From a virus, in IMG/VR virus record IMGVR_UViG_3300023223_000052, positions 1 to 24,444 of that record: a stretch of DNA of 24,444 nucleotides, one strand, 5' to 3'. This document shows, piece after piece, positions 12,318 to 18,716 of this stretch. Position 1 is the first letter of the stretch. Each line of letters begins with the position of its first letter. The position numbers and the translations under genes were made by a program. The notes under the pieces were generated by a model. The model was not told the origin of the DNA. It searched no databases and saw nothing but the letters and a program-made list of their open reading frames with translations.

Positions 12318-13574
12318 ATGGGCATACACAATACCCTAACAGGTGCAGAACTCCATGAGCCTAAAGGCGCAGCAGCAGCCGCTGTTGGTTTGGTGTTTCA
12401 ATCGGATGGTGCAGGTTCTGGTAGCTTTCAGAAGTTCAAACCAGACACCTTAGTAATCGTCAATGCAATGTCTGACTTCCCTGCTCCATCAGCAGGAGTT
12501 ATCACTCTCGCAGCAGATACCTTCTACATCATAGGTACTGATTTAGCAACAGCAGAAAGGTTCGCATTATCAGCTAATGTGGGAATATCATCACTATATA
12601 CCAATGGTCCAGAACTGGATTACACAGGCACAGGTGCTATGTTCACAGGCACTGGTGTAGACTTAGTAATTACCAATGCCAGAGTAAAGGCAGCAGCAGG
12701 AACACTACTGGATTTAACTGGTGGTTTTTGTCGTATAGATAACTCAACCATAGTGGCAACTGCCAAAGATGGCAAGATGACTGACATAGTTGGCTTGGTC
12801 GTTAACCGTTGTTCATTCTTAGATAGCGATGACGGATTTGAATTCTTAGGTACAGCAGCCGCAGCAGTATTATCACTGAGTAAACTGCGCTATGTAACCA
12901 CATCAGCAACCAATGAGTTTGTCGATTTAGGTACTATCGTATTTAGTTCATTCGAGATTATGGATATCGTATTCGATACACCAGCAGGTGCCATCGCTAT
13001 TAAAGGCGCAACAGGAAGTGCTAACATTGCCACAGACAAATTAGCTCTAATTACCAGTTGTGAATTCGACCCAGATATGACAGTGCTAAGTGGCATAGCT
13101 ACTACTGACTTTAGATTTGAATTTCAAGCTAACTCAGGATTGATAGACAGCTTTAAAGCAGCAGACACATTCATTACAGCAACCCAAACTGTAACTATCG
13201 TTACTCAAAGTGTATTCGTGGTTATCAATGGTGGCTCATGGTCAAGTGACGTTGCCAGTAGATTTACCGCAAGCGCAGCGGGTTTGCTTACTTACATCAG
13301 TGAAATAGATGCCACGTTCCTAGTATCAGGGGTGTCTACTATCGAGAAGACCGCAGGTGGTACGGATGTACTTGAAATGCGTGTTTGTAAGAATGGTACA
13401 ACCGTGGCTAAGTCAGGCAGCTTCACAGAAACAGCAACCCCTGCAACTGTATCATCACAGGCACTAATAACATTGACAGCAGGAGATACCCTAGAATTGG
13501 CTGTGGCTAACAACAGCAGCACAGGTAACATTGATGTTAACGTGGCGAATCTTACTGTAAGGGCCTCAGGTTAG
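12318..13574 (+). CDS. Head fiber/decoration-like protein, 418 aa
   Basis: Begins IHNTLTGAELHEPKG, a motif found at the start of many phage head-fiber or decoration proteins, likely the virion-anchoring tip. The middle (about 55-270) is rich in short turns with strands, such as LVITNARVKAAAGTLLDLTG and CRIDNSTIVATAKDGKMTD, suggesting a beta-helix shaft. The C-terminus (about 335-418; VCKNGTTVAKSGSF, then ITLTAGDTLELAVANNSS) reads as a jelly-roll/C1q-like head, related in style to the 487-aa fiber at 3494. Likely a trimeric surface fiber binding host glycans. AAGGA precedes the ATG, directly after the terminator. Confidence 0.7.
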   Translation: MGIHNTLTGAELHEPKGAAAAAVGLVFQSDGAGSGSFQKFKPDTLVIVNAMSDFPAPSAGVITLAADTFYIIGTDLATAERFALSANVGISSLYTNGPELDYTGTGAMFTGTGVDLVITNARVKAAAGTLLDLTGGFCRIDNSTIVATAKDGKMTDIVGLVVNRCSFLDSDDGFEFLGTAAAAVLSLSKLRYVTTSATNEFVDLGTIVFSSFEIMDIVFDTPAGAIAIKGATGSANIATDKLALITSCEFDPDMTVLSGIATTDFRFEFQANSGLIDSFKAADTFITATQTVTIVTQSVFVVINGGSWSSDVASRFTASAAGLLTYISEIDATFLVSGVSTIEKTAGGTDVLEMRVCKNGTTVAKSGSFTETATPATVSSQALITLTAGDTLELAVANNSSTGNIDVNVANLTVRASG

Positions 13575-13583
13575 GAGTAGAGC

Positions 13584-16073
13584 ATGGCTAGACAAAAAGG
13601 TATAGACCAAAAGATACAGGTCACTAAAGGTTTCGTCACTGAGTTTACACCAGTGGCATTCCCACAAGAGGCCGCTATTGATTTGGACAATGTAATCATT
13701 GACCCTGATGGCAGTGTTCGTCGTAGACCGGGTATTGATTTAGAGCAAACTGCTGTTCTAAATACTATTGCAGGAGGTGTTGTAACATCAGCCCAGATAG
13801 AAGAAATGGGCATGTCTACTCACTTATGGGAGGCTGTAGGTAACTCAGGCACCTTAAATATTGTGGTGTTCCAGATAGGTGTGACATTACAGTTTTACGC
13901 CCAAGTGGGTGTACTGTCTAAGCAGTTATTAGGTACTATCGATTTAACTCCATTCGCTGTGAACTCGGCTAAGTTAACTAATGCCAAAGTGCAGACAGCA
14001 TCAGGCTTAGGGGACTTGTATGTAGTTAGTGAATTCATGGACCCTATCCGCATATCGTATGATGGAGCAGCATTCACTGCTACTAAAATTACAATTCGTA
14101 TTAGGGACTTTGAGGGCCTAGATGATGGATTAGCGATTGACGAACGACCAAAAATATTGACACGTAGACACTATTACAACCTTAGAAACCAAGGCTGGAC
14201 AGACATTAACATTAATAAGTTCGTCGGTTTGACCTCCAACCCTGACTTATGTGCGGCCACTGCGTTAAGTGGCATAGTAACTGCAAAACCTTGGCCCAGT
14301 AATGCTGACCAAATGATTGTAGGCATTGTAACGGATAGCAATGGCGATTTGACCTTCAACGGAGAGTTTATTCGGGAAGGTTTCACTGGTAACACTCCTG
14401 CACCGAGAGGACACTTCATTCTTGAGGCGTTCAATCAGCAATTTGATGATGTTTTAGGGTGCGCCAATACAGGCTTTAGGGTATTTGACACCAGACCAGA
14501 GGCTGTAGCTTTTCATCAAGGACGAGCATTCTTCACATCAGCTAACGTGCAAGGCAGAATTGGGGGCGTACTATATAGCCAGCAGTTAACTGTCCCAGAC
14601 AAAGAGGGTAATTGTTTCCAAGAGGCTGACCCAACAGCTGACCAGATTAACGACTTGATTGATACCGATGGAGGGTTCTTGCCAATGCCGGGTGTTGGTG
14701 AGATTTACAAACTCGTTGAAGTCGGAACAGGCATAGCAGTTATTGCCTCGAACGGTGTGTGGTTTATCACAGGTGCCGATGGTAACGGACTATCAGCAAC
14801 CAATATTCGTCTTGACCATTCCAGCACTATAGGTGCCTTGAGTGCGTCTAGTGTGGTACAGGCTGAGGGTGGCATATTTTACTTTGGTATAGATGGTATT
14901 ATCCAAGGGACAGTGGACGAACTATCCATATTGAATATGAAGAATATCACTCAGCAGGTTATCCAAACTTTCTACATTAACATCAGTGCAGCAGCTCGTA
15001 GGGATGCAGAGGCTGTTTACATACCAGAACAGCGCAAGATATACTGGGCCTACCGGGAGGCTCAAGCAGCTGAGGGAACTACCAGCAGGAGCTTTGATAA
15101 GTTTCTAATCTTAGATTTCGATGTGGGTGGGTTTTACAAGTACAGCATACCGCAACAAGCGGGAACTGTATTCCCTGAGATTGTGGGCCTATCATTTGTT
15201 AAGCCATTAGTTGAAGGTACACTCACCGAAGTTGTTACTGAAATAGATGGCACAGTGGTTACTGACACAGCCTTGGAGATTGTTACAGTAGAAAGGGAAC
15301 AGGATATCGGACAGAGAACCGAACTCAAGATGGCTACCTTAGCATTTGATATAGCAGCCGATGGATATAAGGCGACATTCGCCACATTCCATAGCCGCAG
15401 CTTTACTGATTGGCTAGGCGTAACCACGGACAAGGAAGGCATTCCTATGACCTCGTTCATTGAGTTTGCCGAGTTTAATATGGGAGCGATACATACTAAG
15501 GGTAAACCAACCTATGTGCATTCCTTCTACCAGAAGACAAGTAAGAATTTAGAATCGGGAGGGTATTATGAGTTGCCAGTTTTAGGATGCTACCCTCCTG
15601 TGGCTGATGTTATGTTAGTTATAGATAATACAGGTAGTCAAAAGCAGGACGAGTACTTTACAGTAACTCTCCCGGCAATTAGTAACATAATACAGCGGTG
15701 GTTAGTTGGTAGTTATGAGGGTAAGTTAGGTGCAACAGTAATTACAGAAGTTCCTTATTTACTGAACTCTCTTACAACCAATTTGGAGCTAGTACAGACG
15801 AATATTGAAGCGTTACCTGTCCCTACGGGACAAACCAATATAGCTGATGCTATTACTCTAGCTACGGCAGAGATAGCACTTAACGGTACGGGGGGAACTC
15901 CAAGCTTTATCGTAATAATAACCGATGGTGCGCCTAATTTCCCTAACTCTATAACAGCGTATCATGAGGCAGAGGTAGCTGCGTTAGCAGCAAGAGATGC
16001 TGGTATACGTGTAGTTGTATTTGGAGTTATGGGACAAGATTTATCACAACAAGTTGGTGGAGGAGGAGGCTAA
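13584..16073 (+). CDS. Tail nozzle/stabilisation protein with C-terminal vWA domain, 829 aa
   Basis: Residues 1-665 fit the podovirus tail nozzle (phage stabilisation protein, T7 gp12-like role): AIDLDNVIIDPDGSVRRRPG near the start, RRHYYNLRNQGW at 195-205, FHQGRAFFTSANVQGR, and KPTYVHSFYQKTSKNLE near 640-660. From about 672 the sequence changes to a von Willebrand factor A domain: VMLVIDNTGS (MIDAS Asp681-x-Thr683-x-Ser685), TNIADAI (Thr751) and ITDGAPN (Asp781), ending in five glycines. Nozzles do not normally carry vWA domains, and the usual nozzle end seems to be the separate 93-aa gene at 17315. The nozzle would seal the tail end; the vWA part probably binds a surface ligand through a divalent metal. 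GC-rich AGGAG site at the start. Confidence 0.85.
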   Translation: MARQKGIDQKIQVTKGFVTEFTPVAFPQEAAIDLDNVIIDPDGSVRRRPGIDLEQTAVLNTIAGGVVTSAQIEEMGMSTHLWEAVGNSGTLNIVVFQIGVTLQFYAQVGVLSKQLLGTIDLTPFAVNSAKLTNAKVQTASGLGDLYVVSEFMDPIRISYDGAAFTATKITIRIRDFEGLDDGLAIDERPKILTRRHYYNLRNQGWTDININKFVGLTSNPDLCAATALSGIVTAKPWPSNADQMIVGIVTDSNGDLTFNGEFIREGFTGNTPAPRGHFILEAFNQQFDDVLGCANTGFRVFDTRPEAVAFHQGRAFFTSANVQGRIGGVLYSQQLTVPDKEGNCFQEADPTADQINDLIDTDGGFLPMPGVGEIYKLVEVGTGIAVIASNGVWFITGADGNGLSATNIRLDHSSTIGALSASSVVQAEGGIFYFGIDGIIQGTVDELSILNMKNITQQVIQTFYINISAAARRDAEAVYIPEQRKIYWAYREAQAAEGTTSRSFDKFLILDFDVGGFYKYSIPQQAGTVFPEIVGLSFVKPLVEGTLTEVVTEIDGTVVTDTALEIVTVEREQDIGQRTELKMATLAFDIAADGYKATFATFHSRSFTDWLGVTTDKEGIPMTSFIEFAEFNMGAIHTKGKPTYVHSFYQKTSKNLESGGYYELPVLGCYPPVADVMLVIDNTGSQKQDEYFTVTLPAISNIIQRWLVGSYEGKLGATVITEVPYLLNSLTTNLELVQTNIEALPVPTGQTNIADAITLATAEIALNGTGGTPSFIVIITDGAPNFPNSITAYHEAEVAALAARDAGIRVVVFGVMGQDLSQQVGGGGG

Positions 16074-17305
16074 TGCCTACAAGATTTATAAATGATTGGT
16101 GGTTATCTACACAGATAGCCACAGCGAGTACTGCATCAGAGCAGAACTATTACGCGTTAACACTTAATAGTGAGTTAAGTTTAGCACTAGACGATTTCTT
16201 ATGTGACTTGGAGGCACCAAACCCCGCACCTGTACTTGCATTTGACGGATGGGATATAGCACCCCTATCTACAGAGTTCACTGAGGAATGGCAACACATT
16301 CTATATATTCCAAGTAACGATAGTTACGTAATATTTGCACAGGACACAGGTGCAGGAAGTATTGGTCGAGTCAGTACCAGCCCTGATGGAATAACATGGA
16401 CAGCAAGAACAAGCCCTAACGTAAACAATTGGAACAAACCAATATACATTCCAAGCAAAGATTTAATAGTGGTTGCAACAAATTCTAACCTAGGCGGTAC
16501 TGGTGATAATTTCGTAACCAGTGCTGACAGGGGTGTTACTTGGGTGGCAGGAACTACAGGGATAATTGCCTCAGTAGGTAATGTTCCTAACTTAAATAAC
16601 ATACTGTGGGTAGAATCATTGGGGCTGTACATAGCCACAGGGTTTATAAGCACCATCTTGTGGAGCGCAGACTTAGTGACATGGACGGAAGGTACTATGG
16701 CACAACCTGCATTCCTCGGACTGCCCTCAGTTATGGCTTATGCCCCTGCCTTAGGTCTGGTAGTAGCTCTTGATGAAAACCAAGTGGCGTACACCAGTAC
16801 TGATGGTAAAATCTGGACACATAACACATTAGGTGCAGGGTTTGATAATTTCTATTACGACATAGCATGGTCAGAACCTTTAGGATTATTTGTCGGTAGT
16901 ACCGAACATAATGAGGGTACTAGTGAGCTGTTTGTAACCAGTACTGATGGCGTTAACTGGGTCAAAACTTCTGTGGGATATACCATCGTACAGCACAATG
17001 CTGGACAGGATACATTCCAGCCGGGAGGACAGATTGAGTGGGATGATTTCACTAGTAAATTTTATGCGTTAACTATTGGTGATGATAATGGTAATTTTAC
17101 GGGGCAAAGTCTAATAACTCCTTCTGTGAATCTGCTAACCAGTGTTGATGGCATTACTTGGGTGATTGATGACACAGTGCCCAGTACGCATGCTTTTAGT
17201 TACCCTGTATTCGGAACGAGACACTATGTAGGTTTTGCAATCAAGGACGCTACTAACATGGTTATGATAAACCGACACTCAGCAATCCGTAGAATACCTA
17301 CGTAA
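16073..17305 (+). CDS. Asp-box beta-propeller protein, 410 aa
   Basis: Six Asp-box (BNR-type, S/T-x-D-G-x-x-W) motifs are seen: STSPDGITW (101-109), TSADRGVTW (149-157), WSADLVTW (197-204), TSTDGKIW (241-248), TSTDGVNW (289-296) and TSVDGITW (356-363). Each follows a strand pair such as HILYIPSNDSYVIF or DIAWSEPLGLFVG, giving a six- or seven-bladed propeller. Such propellers occur in sialidases and in glycan- or protein-binding virion proteins; sialidase catalytic residues (Arg triad, Tyr/Glu pair) are not evident, so binding is more likely than cleavage. Start overlaps the nozzle stop (TAATG), with the ribosome site inside the codons for the nozzle's terminal glycines. Probably a receptor-binding partner of the vWA domain. 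Confidence 0.8.
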   Translation: MPTRFINDWWLSTQIATASTASEQNYYALTLNSELSLALDDFLCDLEAPNPAPVLAFDGWDIAPLSTEFTEEWQHILYIPSNDSYVIFAQDTGAGSIGRVSTSPDGITWTARTSPNVNNWNKPIYIPSKDLIVVATNSNLGGTGDNFVTSADRGVTWVAGTTGIIASVGNVPNLNNILWVESLGLYIATGFISTILWSADLVTWTEGTMAQPAFLGLPSVMAYAPALGLVVALDENQVAYTSTDGKIWTHNTLGAGFDNFYYDIAWSEPLGLFVGSTEHNEGTSELFVTSTDGVNWVKTSVGYTIVQHNAGQDTFQPGGQIEWDDFTSKFYALTIGDDNGNFTGQSLITPSVNLLTSVDGITWVIDDTVPSTHAFSYPVFGTRHYVGFAIKDATNMVMINRHSAIRRIPT

Positions 17306-17314
17306 GGAAATATA

Positions 17315-17596
17315 ATGACATTATCAGATGTGTACTCTTGTATGCTTACTGTGAAGTTTGACTTTTCAGTAGACAACAGCACAGGCAAGTGGAGTACCCC
17401 ACAGGAAACATATAAGCTTAGTACCATACGCCTCAGAGGACGCCCAGAGAATGAGTACGAGTATAATGTAATTGATACCAGAGTGAGAGTACGAGGAACA
17501 GGCAGAGTAGCAGTGTCACGCTATGAGTCATCTCCCGGTAAAGACTTCCAGTTGATAGGGCGAGTAACGCCATTCACATTCGAGACAGAGGGTTAA
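17315..17596 (+). CDS. Detached C-terminal domain of the tail nozzle, 93 aa
   Basis: Reads MLTVKFDFSVDNSTGKW, STPQETYKL, then DTRVRVRGTGRVAVSRYES and SSPGKDFQLIGRVTPF. From family memory, nozzle proteins end in this pattern: a W/F-D-x-S strand, 'GKWS-x-P-x-E-x-Y', then 'VRGRGR-x-x-x-x-R-x-ES-x-x-GKDFxLxG'. Here it is a separate gene after the vWA and propeller genes, with its own AAGGA site. The natural reading is that the nozzle gene was split by an insertion and this fragment continues to be made and may assemble with the nozzle in trans. Alternatively it is a decaying remnant, but the intact frame and ribosome site argue against that. Confidence 0.7.
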   Translation: MTLSDVYSCMLTVKFDFSVDNSTGKWSTPQETYKLSTIRLRGRPENEYEYNVIDTRVRVRGTGRVAVSRYESSPGKDFQLIGRVTPFTFETEG

Positions 17597-17598
17597 TT

Positions 17599-17685
17599 AT
17601 GCCAGTACATACAGGTAAAGAACGCAAGAAAGCGCAGAAGAAGATTAACAAAAAGGTTAAGAAGACTAAGAAGGGTAAGAAATAA
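17599..17685 (+). CDS. Lysine-rich 28-aa peptide
   Basis: A 28-codon frame, MPVHTGKERKKAQKKINKKV and so on, with 13 lysines and almost no acidic residues. It is preceded by GAGGG and its TAA overlaps the ATG of the tail adaptor gene. Such tiny basic peptides appear between tail genes in some podoviruses. They may bind DNA or neutralise it during packaging, or act only as a coupling leader for the adaptor gene. The overlaps and ribosome site support translation; function is unknown. Confidence 0.6.
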   Translation: MPVHTGKERKKAQKKINKKVKKTKKGKK

Positions 17686-18443
17686 TGGCTAAGAAAACTC
17701 TATTGAGAATAGTAAGGCTGATAGGAGAACGGATTGGCTCGGATGAGATTGACACTCTCGACGAGACTATTGAGGCTACGGAGATAGTCAGTATCCTTGA
17801 ACTTACTTATGATGAAATATTAGACCGCAGGGACTGGGAGTTCTTGCGTGACCGCACATTGAAACTAAAGGCGAGAGCTGTTACGGATACCAAGTTATTC
17901 AACCTTGATATACCATCTATGGTTACTGCTTTGCAGTGTGTTAAATACCGGGACGTTAATGGCAAGTTCCCTGAGATGGAATACGTGGAACCTTGTGTGT
18001 TCATTGAACGCTTGGATGGCAGGAATGCCGCTGATGCTAACGTCACTGAGATTGCCAACGATGATGGAGTGCTACTTAGGATTATAACTGACAAGGCACC
18101 GACCTTTTACACCAGCTTTGACGAGGCAACACTATCGTTTGAGTCGTATGATTCCACTAGGGGAACTGGTAATCAGGCAGGTGATAGTATTATAATTGCC
18201 AACATCAAGCCCGTTATGGACTTTACTGACCCAACGGCATTATTTCCAATCCCTGAGAGGATGGGAACACTACTCCTAAATGAGGCTATGGCCACAGCAG
18301 GGGTTCAATTAAGACAGGTATCCGATTCAAGAGCCGAACGCATAGCACGCAGACAAGGCATCAAACTTAGAGAATTAGAGCCAATCACACAACGCGACCA
18401 GCAGGTGAAACGACATGGCAGAAGAACGAGCAGTGGACGATAG
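17685..18443 (+). CDS. Tail adaptor (tail tubular A-like) protein, 252 aa
   Basis: Likely the gatekeeper ring that joins the portal to the nozzle. The N-terminal helices (RIVRLIGERIGSDEIDTLDE, then EIVSILELTYDEILDRRDWEF) and the sheet SFESYDSTRGTGNQAGDSI followed by FPIPERMGTLLLNEAMATAG fit podovirus tail adaptors (T7 gp11-type), where an early 'W-x-F' helix pair is typical. Size (about 250 aa) is larger than T7 gp11 (196 aa) but in range for marine and N4-unrelated podoviruses. It starts in a TAATG overlap with the lysine-rich peptide. Confidence 0.75.
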   Translation: MAKKTLLRIVRLIGERIGSDEIDTLDETIEATEIVSILELTYDEILDRRDWEFLRDRTLKLKARAVTDTKLFNLDIPSMVTALQCVKYRDVNGKFPEMEYVEPCVFIERLDGRNAADANVTEIANDDGVLLRIITDKAPTFYTSFDEATLSFESYDSTRGTGNQAGDSIIIANIKPVMDFTDPTALFPIPERMGTLLLNEAMATAGVQLRQVSDSRAERIARRQGIKLRELEPITQRDQQVKRHGRRTSSGR

Positions 18444-18687: not shown

Positions 18688-18716
18688 AAGGGCTACCTAA
18701 GGGTAGCCTTTCTTCT
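18688..18716 (+). terminator. Intrinsic terminator before the acetyltransferase gene
   Basis: GGCTACC (18691-18697), loop TAAG, GGTAGCC (18702-18708), then TTTCTTCT. The stem can extend by A-T and G-T pairs at its base. It lies just after the 89-aa gene and before the acetyltransferase ribosome site. Confidence 0.82.

Follow-up and report, generated by a model that had tools for sequence, protein, structure and literature searches.

A tail nozzle encoded in two pieces, with a probable slot for exchangeable adhesion genes, in podoviruses of the VpV262 type

Introduction

In phage T7 the fibres sit between the fibre docks of the nozzle and the adaptor (PMC6702177), and in phage SU10 a short-tail-fibre dock loop of the nozzle protein gp17 holds the receptor-binding fibres (PMC9509320). 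Nozzles in two pieces are already on record: the GenBank notes of Vibrio phage VpV262 and Pseudoalteromonas phage RIO-1 (Melvirus) state this, and the VpV262 note adds a similarity of ORFP to the C-terminal region of Roseophage SIO1 gp27 and describes ORFN as mosaic. Our search for accessible papers on the split, on its clade, on empty sites or on cassette exchange found none; the original papers on VpV262 (2003) and RIO-1 (2016) were outside that search. Here we describe a split tail nozzle gene in the IMG/VR virus record IMGVR_UViG_3300023223_000052, a single metagenomic contig of 24,444 bases, which was analysed at its full length and is called the window.

The window stems from a marine podovirus. 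Its structural module comprises terminase, portal (head-tail adaptor in PHROG), major head protein, nozzle, adaptor and internal virion protein. The nearest classified relatives of the nozzle and its detached domain are Zobellviridae. The nozzle is encoded by a gene for 829 amino acids (aa), which ends in a vWA domain, and by a second gene for 93 aa, with a gene for a 410-aa protein between them. By its sequence, the window belongs to a VpV262-type clade characterized by fission of the nozzle at a loop of the platform domain and by an adaptor gene downstream of the nozzle. We consider it probable that a podoviral nozzle (T7 gp12/P22 gp10 type) underwent an ancient fission at this loop and that the break was turned into a slot for exchangeable adhesion genes.

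Results

Two genes together encode one nozzle

The three open reading frames (ORFs; 829, 410 and 93 aa) lie where an earlier reading of this DNA, the original prediction, had placed them. The model phrog_8094 ('tail appendage') matched residues 1-657 of the 829-aa protein with its positions 1-669 (E 1.6e-105) and residues 8-82 of the 93-aa protein with its positions 682-758 (E 2e-11). To avoid circularity, we restricted an independent profile of 739 positions to 47 unsplit nozzles. On this profile, the 829-aa protein corresponded to positions 1-641 and the 93-aa protein to positions 651-737 (57 bits, E 4.6e-19), so that about 9 linker positions between the two pieces were left unexplained. When residues 1-671 were joined to the 93-aa protein, the match ran uninterrupted over positions 1-737 and scored 597 bits, compared to 536 bits for the 829-aa protein alone. 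The pieces of the split relatives L022, L001, L007 and L029 (L numbers denote loci) fitted the profile likewise. The full length of a T7-type nozzle was covered by the two chains together and not by a single polypeptide, as the vWA segment and the 410-aa gene separate the two genes.

These results agree with the prediction that the residues before 672 and the 93-aa protein make up one normal nozzle, with homologs aligning continuously over the join, and that the 93-aa gene is the displaced nozzle end. No relatives were found in which the 93-aa gene was unrelated and the nozzle lacked this domain. The predicted switch from nozzle to vWA sequence was present, but nozzle homology stops near residue 659 and not at 670, and residues from about 660 to 674 form a linker. 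The body ends with the conserved strand PTYVHSFYQK, and the detached piece opens with SCMLTVKFDF.

Between the window and L018, the detached domain showed proportions of non-synonymous (pN) and synonymous (pS) differences of 0.155 and 0.734, respectively. Only pN and pS are quoted, because dN/dS of the nozzle body was saturated at synonymous sites. Judged by these values, the 93-aa gene is under purifying selection. A scan for conserved patterns with the alignment of the detached domain yielded too few conserved stretches.

The break falls into the predicted platform

The prediction for the unsplit nozzle of locus L034 had a predicted local distance difference test score (pLDDT) of 88.7 and a predicted template modelling score (pTM) of 0.85. 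Residues 3-737 of the model matched residues 3-791 of T7 gp12 with Z 21.5, and Z values to solved nozzles were 21-27 overall, over the full length. The propeller-plus-platform fold was seen in this model of an unsplit homolog. Matches to propeller-only structures stopped near residue 585 of L034, and the platform would consist of residues 586-737 plus N-terminal strands. In the model, the fission point lies between the strands 619-629 and 651-658. Together with the T7 literature, the structure places the break in a loop of the domain predicted to contact the adaptor, so that two chains are needed to form the platform. We expect the detached piece to complete the beta-sandwich rather than to be a free domain, and its poor model as a lone chain agrees with this. 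By analogy, the nozzle would be a hexamer that is docked on the adaptor and gates the DNA; the adaptor gene adjoins. Among the sequences of solved structures, profiles of the body and of the detached domain found no relatives.

The split is shared by one clade

A search of IMG/VR with the nozzle body yielded 80 loci, and searches with other members as query then yielded 26 and 5; annotated isolates were included. Some contigs were fetched twice (L001 also as L004 and L019, and VpV262, L008, also as L110), and all counts refer to loci. The C-terminal domain was within the same chain in 102 unsplit loci, where it mostly follows the body after 9-23 residues. Both pieces of a split nozzle were present on the contig in the window, L001, L003, L018, L020, L022, L023, L024, L026, L029, L111 and L112, and in the isolated Vibrio phages 1.034.O (L005), 1.015.O (L006), 1.077.O (L007) and VpV262. 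The contigs of L002 and L021 stop before the second piece, and both were classed as split by their cassette.

In an unrooted tree of 70 nozzle bodies, the 15 split rows were on one side of a single branch (98 in the Shimodaira-Hasegawa-like approximate likelihood ratio test, SH-aLRT). The clade persisted when the long rows L007, L008, L010 and L016 were dropped, and comprised 16 rows when L111 was added. All relatives found to be split at the platform loop, except one (L125), were in this clade. The adaptor gene was downstream of the nozzle in 18/18 split loci in which it was found and upstream in 102/102 unsplit loci. This relocation is common to the split members and marks one old event. As far as sequences can tell, the fission is ancient and clade-wide and not a fresh insertion.

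We also considered whether the window joins unrelated phage DNA by an assembly artefact, as it is a single metagenomic contig. We give practically no weight to this explanation. The independent contig L003 has the same layout at 64-79% identity, and the presence of the split itself in isolates ruled the artefact out.

The gap between the nozzle genes has variable content

The slot between the two pieces holds a vWA domain on the body and a propeller gene in the window, in L003 and, as far as the contig reaches, in L002. In L029 the vWA domain and the propeller are fused to the body in one chain of 1190 aa. L001, L018, L020, L023, L024 and L026 have RVSQSVLEVL repeats on the body and one or two phrog_2448-type genes (the PHROG match was run for L001 and L018). 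VpV262 has a body extension and a phrog_6368 gene, with a similar gene in L111, while L005 and L006 carry other genes. The slot is empty in L022 (9 nt) and L007 (8 nt). Since L022 sits among filled relatives, its slot has probably lost its content.

Close relatives differ in their cassettes. The window and L018 have sister bodies (65% identity) and detached domains with 82% identity, and their cassettes are unrelated. The sisters L023 and L026 share 73% identity in the body and 77% in the detached domain, but only 36% in the cassette gene, and the cassettes of L020 and L023 are 67% identical. On the tree, the six cassette states required a minimum of 7 changes, the floor being 5. Between the window and L003, the propeller gene differed at 36/132 fourfold sites versus 240/472 for the internal virion protein. 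This may hint at a more recent exchange; the small neighbouring genes are also low in divergence. One clade, two empty slots and unrelated cassettes at the same point indicate that the fission is old and the cassette exchangeable. We concluded that the gap is a slot of variable content, which the sequences suggest to be one for adhesion-type genes.

The original prediction had explained the split by an adhesion module of about 1.7 kb inserted near the end of the gene. A cassette is indeed located between the nozzle parts, but it did not cause the split: a single insertion that broke the gene of the window is contradicted by the clade-wide split, by the empty slots of L022 and L007, and by unrelated cassettes at the same point. 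In the form that the vWA-plus-propeller module was recently inserted into an intact nozzle gene in the own ancestry of the window phage, this explanation is very unlikely. It would account for the exact position of the cassette between the nozzle parts and for the same cassette in the close relative L003. However, split relatives with another cassette or none form one clade with the window and share its relocated adaptor gene, and L022, L007 and L018, with its sister body and other cassette, contradict a recent event unless fissions recurred often at one codon range.

The repeats mentioned above were an observation in their own right. Two or three 17-residue RVSQSVLEVL repeats close the nozzle body in L001, L018, L020, L021, L023, L024 and L026. 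They occurred in every genome with a phrog_2448-type slot gene (in L021, only the start of the gene is present) and in no other, and may represent a docking peptide. Outside the split clade, the only match to them was a weak one in a Providencia phage (two records).

The detached piece has its own ribosome site

Both nozzle pieces are within one tight row of genes, and internal promoters or terminators between them were predicted at chance level only. The vWA chain ends in five Gly codons (GGT GGA GGA GGA GGC) that double as the GGAGG site of the propeller gene, whose ATG overlaps the TAA stop codon of the body (TAATG); L002 and L003 are arranged likewise. The sequence AAGGA is located six bases before the ATG of the 93-aa gene, and comparable purine-rich sites precede the detached gene in most split relatives. 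Together with the purifying selection described above, this supports the earlier view that the displaced end was kept as a gene with its own ribosome site.

If the 93-aa domain were mainly made within a full-length nozzle by recoding (readthrough or frameshift), the arrangement in L022 would be in line with it, as the detached gene of this locus is in the frame of the body after one TAA and nine bases. We regard recoding as extremely unlikely. The pieces are 1.24 kb apart in the window, with another gene between them, and frameshift or readthrough was rejected there. In L007 and L029 the frames of the two pieces differ (gaps of 8 and 16 nt), and the separate starts of the detached gene are preceded by ribosome sites.

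Properties of the cassette proteins

The original prediction of a vWA domain at the end of the 829-aa protein was confirmed by PF00092, which matched residues 675-820 above the curated cut-off (E 1.1e-11). The metal ion-dependent adhesion site (MIDAS) is complete (D681-N-T683-G-S685, T752, D781), with the same motifs in L002 and L003. All six Asp-box-like motifs predicted for the following gene were found in the 410-aa protein (SPDGITW, SADRGVTW, SADLVTW, STDGKIW, STDGVNW, SVDGITW; two of them imperfect). No PHROG or Pfam library model matched this protein at cut-off (BNR_2 reached 14.3 bits versus a cut-off of 31.4), and it is classed as a propeller from its motifs. In annotated phages, it had only weak matches, in unrelated phages.

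The most likely function of the vWA domain and the propeller is host adhesion. This is suggested by their exchangeability, by their predicted position at the rim where fibres dock, and by the setting of phrog_2448 relatives, which in other phages adjoin tail-tip, tail-fibre or lectin-like genes. The cassette proteins could instead be factors for nozzle assembly or control of ejection, with the vWA domain as a metal-switched clamp and the propeller as a scaffold. The covalent link of the vWA domain to the nozzle and the lack of a known receptor for the cassette are in favor of such a role, and vWA domains often mediate protein-protein assembly. The content of the slot is, however, highly variable and swapped between close relatives, as is the case for receptor-binding modules, and the neighbours of phrog_2448 relatives elsewhere also point away from assembly. 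We therefore consider assembly factors unlikely, though clearly deserving attention, and favor host adhesion.

Neighbouring features

Positions of the features are listed in Table 1. An ORF of 28 aa that is very rich in Lys (MPVHTGKERKKAQKKINKKVKKTKKGKK) is located at 17599-17685, between the detached nozzle gene and the adaptor gene. Similar Lys-rich ORFs starting with MPxHT are present at the same position in L003, L018, L022 and L029, and none was seen in L001, L020, L023, L024 and L026. The gene 5' of the nozzle (12318-13574, 418 aa) showed a weak C-terminal match to BclA_C and weak matches to tail-fibre PHROGs. Its counterparts in relatives are of strongly unequal lengths, and its product may be a second variable surface protein. 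A perfect 10-bp stem with a 4-base loop and a T-rich tail is present at 18688-18711, between the small gene after the adaptor and a GNAT-family gene; the overall number of such stem-loop sites is at chance level.

Table 1. Features of the split nozzle locus in the window
Feature	Position	Strand	Basis
Nozzle body fused to vWA domain, 829 aa	13584..16073	+	phrog_8094 residues 1-657; PF00092 residues 675-820; unsplit-nozzle profile 1-641
vWA domain, residues 675-820	15606..16043	+	PF00092; MIDAS motif common to L002 and L003
Five Gly codons doubling as GGAGG ribosome site; TAATG stop/start overlap	16056..16075	+	Sequence; likewise in L002 and L003
410-aa six-Asp-box beta-propeller-type protein, second cassette gene	16073..17305	+	Six motifs; 71% identical in L003; vWA-fused in L029
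AAGGA ribosome site of the 93-aa gene (6-nt spacer); overlaps the stop codon of the propeller gene	17304..17314	+	Sequence; comparable sites in most split relatives
Detached nozzle C-terminal part, 93 aa, predicted last platform strands	17315..17596	+	Profile 651-737; strands of the unsplit homolog model; purifying selection
Adaptor (head completion/tubular protein A), predicted to contact the platform domain directly	17685..18443	+	phrog_7592, E 2.8e-48

Discussion

In the mechanism that we propose, six copies of each piece would reassemble in the virion without a covalent link. The 93-aa chain would join N- and C-terminal strands of the body to close the platform beta-sandwich, and would lie against the adaptor, the product of the neighbouring gene. 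The vWA domain, which now forms the C-terminus of the body, would project together with the propeller from the rim where the T7 fibres dock, and both would bind the host surface, the vWA domain through its metal site. Fission would allow a bulky adhesin to hang on a free C-terminus, with no need to thread it through a loop of the beta-sandwich, and the adhesin could be replaced through recombination in the conserved flanks.

Several points weigh against this proposal. The tree has no outgroup root, and the presumed ancestral state, an unsplit nozzle, is taken from the single-chain nozzles of T7, P22 and SU10, to which the unsplit homolog corresponds from end to end. The vWA domain of the window has no relative among annotated phages, and receptor binding by this domain or by the propeller is a prediction. 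The model of the 93-aa chain by itself was of mediocre quality (pLDDT 75, pTM 0.59) and had no useful match in the PDB; both would be expected of a fragment, though they do not prove it to be one.

Breaks of the nozzle are not limited to the platform loop. As in the window, the nozzle is in two pieces in Pseudoalteromonas phage RIO-1, where they are annotated as gp44 and gp40, with three genes between them. Unlike in the window, the Melvirus break is in another loop, inside the propeller part (profile 276|288), and leaves the C-terminal platform part attached to the body. The gap varies among the Melvirus-type loci L102-L106: RIO-1 has three genes there (about 2 kb), HP1 has about 0.5 kb, and three oyster-associated genomes have 9 nt. 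A third fission site, near profile 182|196 and inside an insertion, was found in Vibrio phage 1.235.O (L012, 2009-4764); 468E53-1 (L016) carries an insertion there that is not broken. A scan with a single query for further nozzles of the 1.034.O type found none. Within the unsplit clade, the nozzle of L125 (1690-2054) is broken at the platform loop by a mere TAATG overlap, with a GGAGG site and no cassette; it is apparently an independent fission, or an indel error. In the more distant nozzles L129 and L132, domains are inserted in frame at the platform loop (roughly 160 and 256 residues) and at the Melvirus loop (about 207 residues). The fissions of L125, Melvirus and 1.235.O and the insertions of L129 and L132 indicate that fission and insertion use the same few loops. 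We tentatively suggest, as a possibility somewhat short of probable, that Zobellviridae-type phages repeatedly broke the nozzle at insertion-tolerant loops (platform loop, 276|288 and 182|196), that fission came first and adhesin capture after it, and that each break became a standing slot for receptor-binding genes.

Our data suggest that two chains can do the work of a conserved tail gate and that exchangeable host-recognition modules dock at the break point. Podoviruses could in this way exchange parts for receptor binding and leave the gate itself untouched, a route that can be tested. The finding also accounts for the small genes next to the adaptor that are annotated as hypothetical in VpV262-like phages, and it unites separate GenBank notes in a single, recurrent pattern of evolution in which the slot is empty, filled or fused.

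Among the closest described counterparts is VpV262, in which the nozzle is split at the same loop as in the window, with another gene between the pieces (ORFN, ORFO and ORFP). Unlike the window, it carries an extension of 200 aa and a phrog_6368 gene there and not a vWA domain and a propeller. T7 gp12 and P22 gp10 have the same overall fold as the unsplit homolog L034 over the full length, as seen by structure comparison, but these nozzles are single chains, to which fibres or spikes attach as separate proteins at the interface with the adaptor. SU10 gp17 is comparable to the window nozzle in that it carries an element holding receptor-binding fibres, whereas this element is a loop of propeller blade 1, the chain is unsplit and a vWA domain is lacking.

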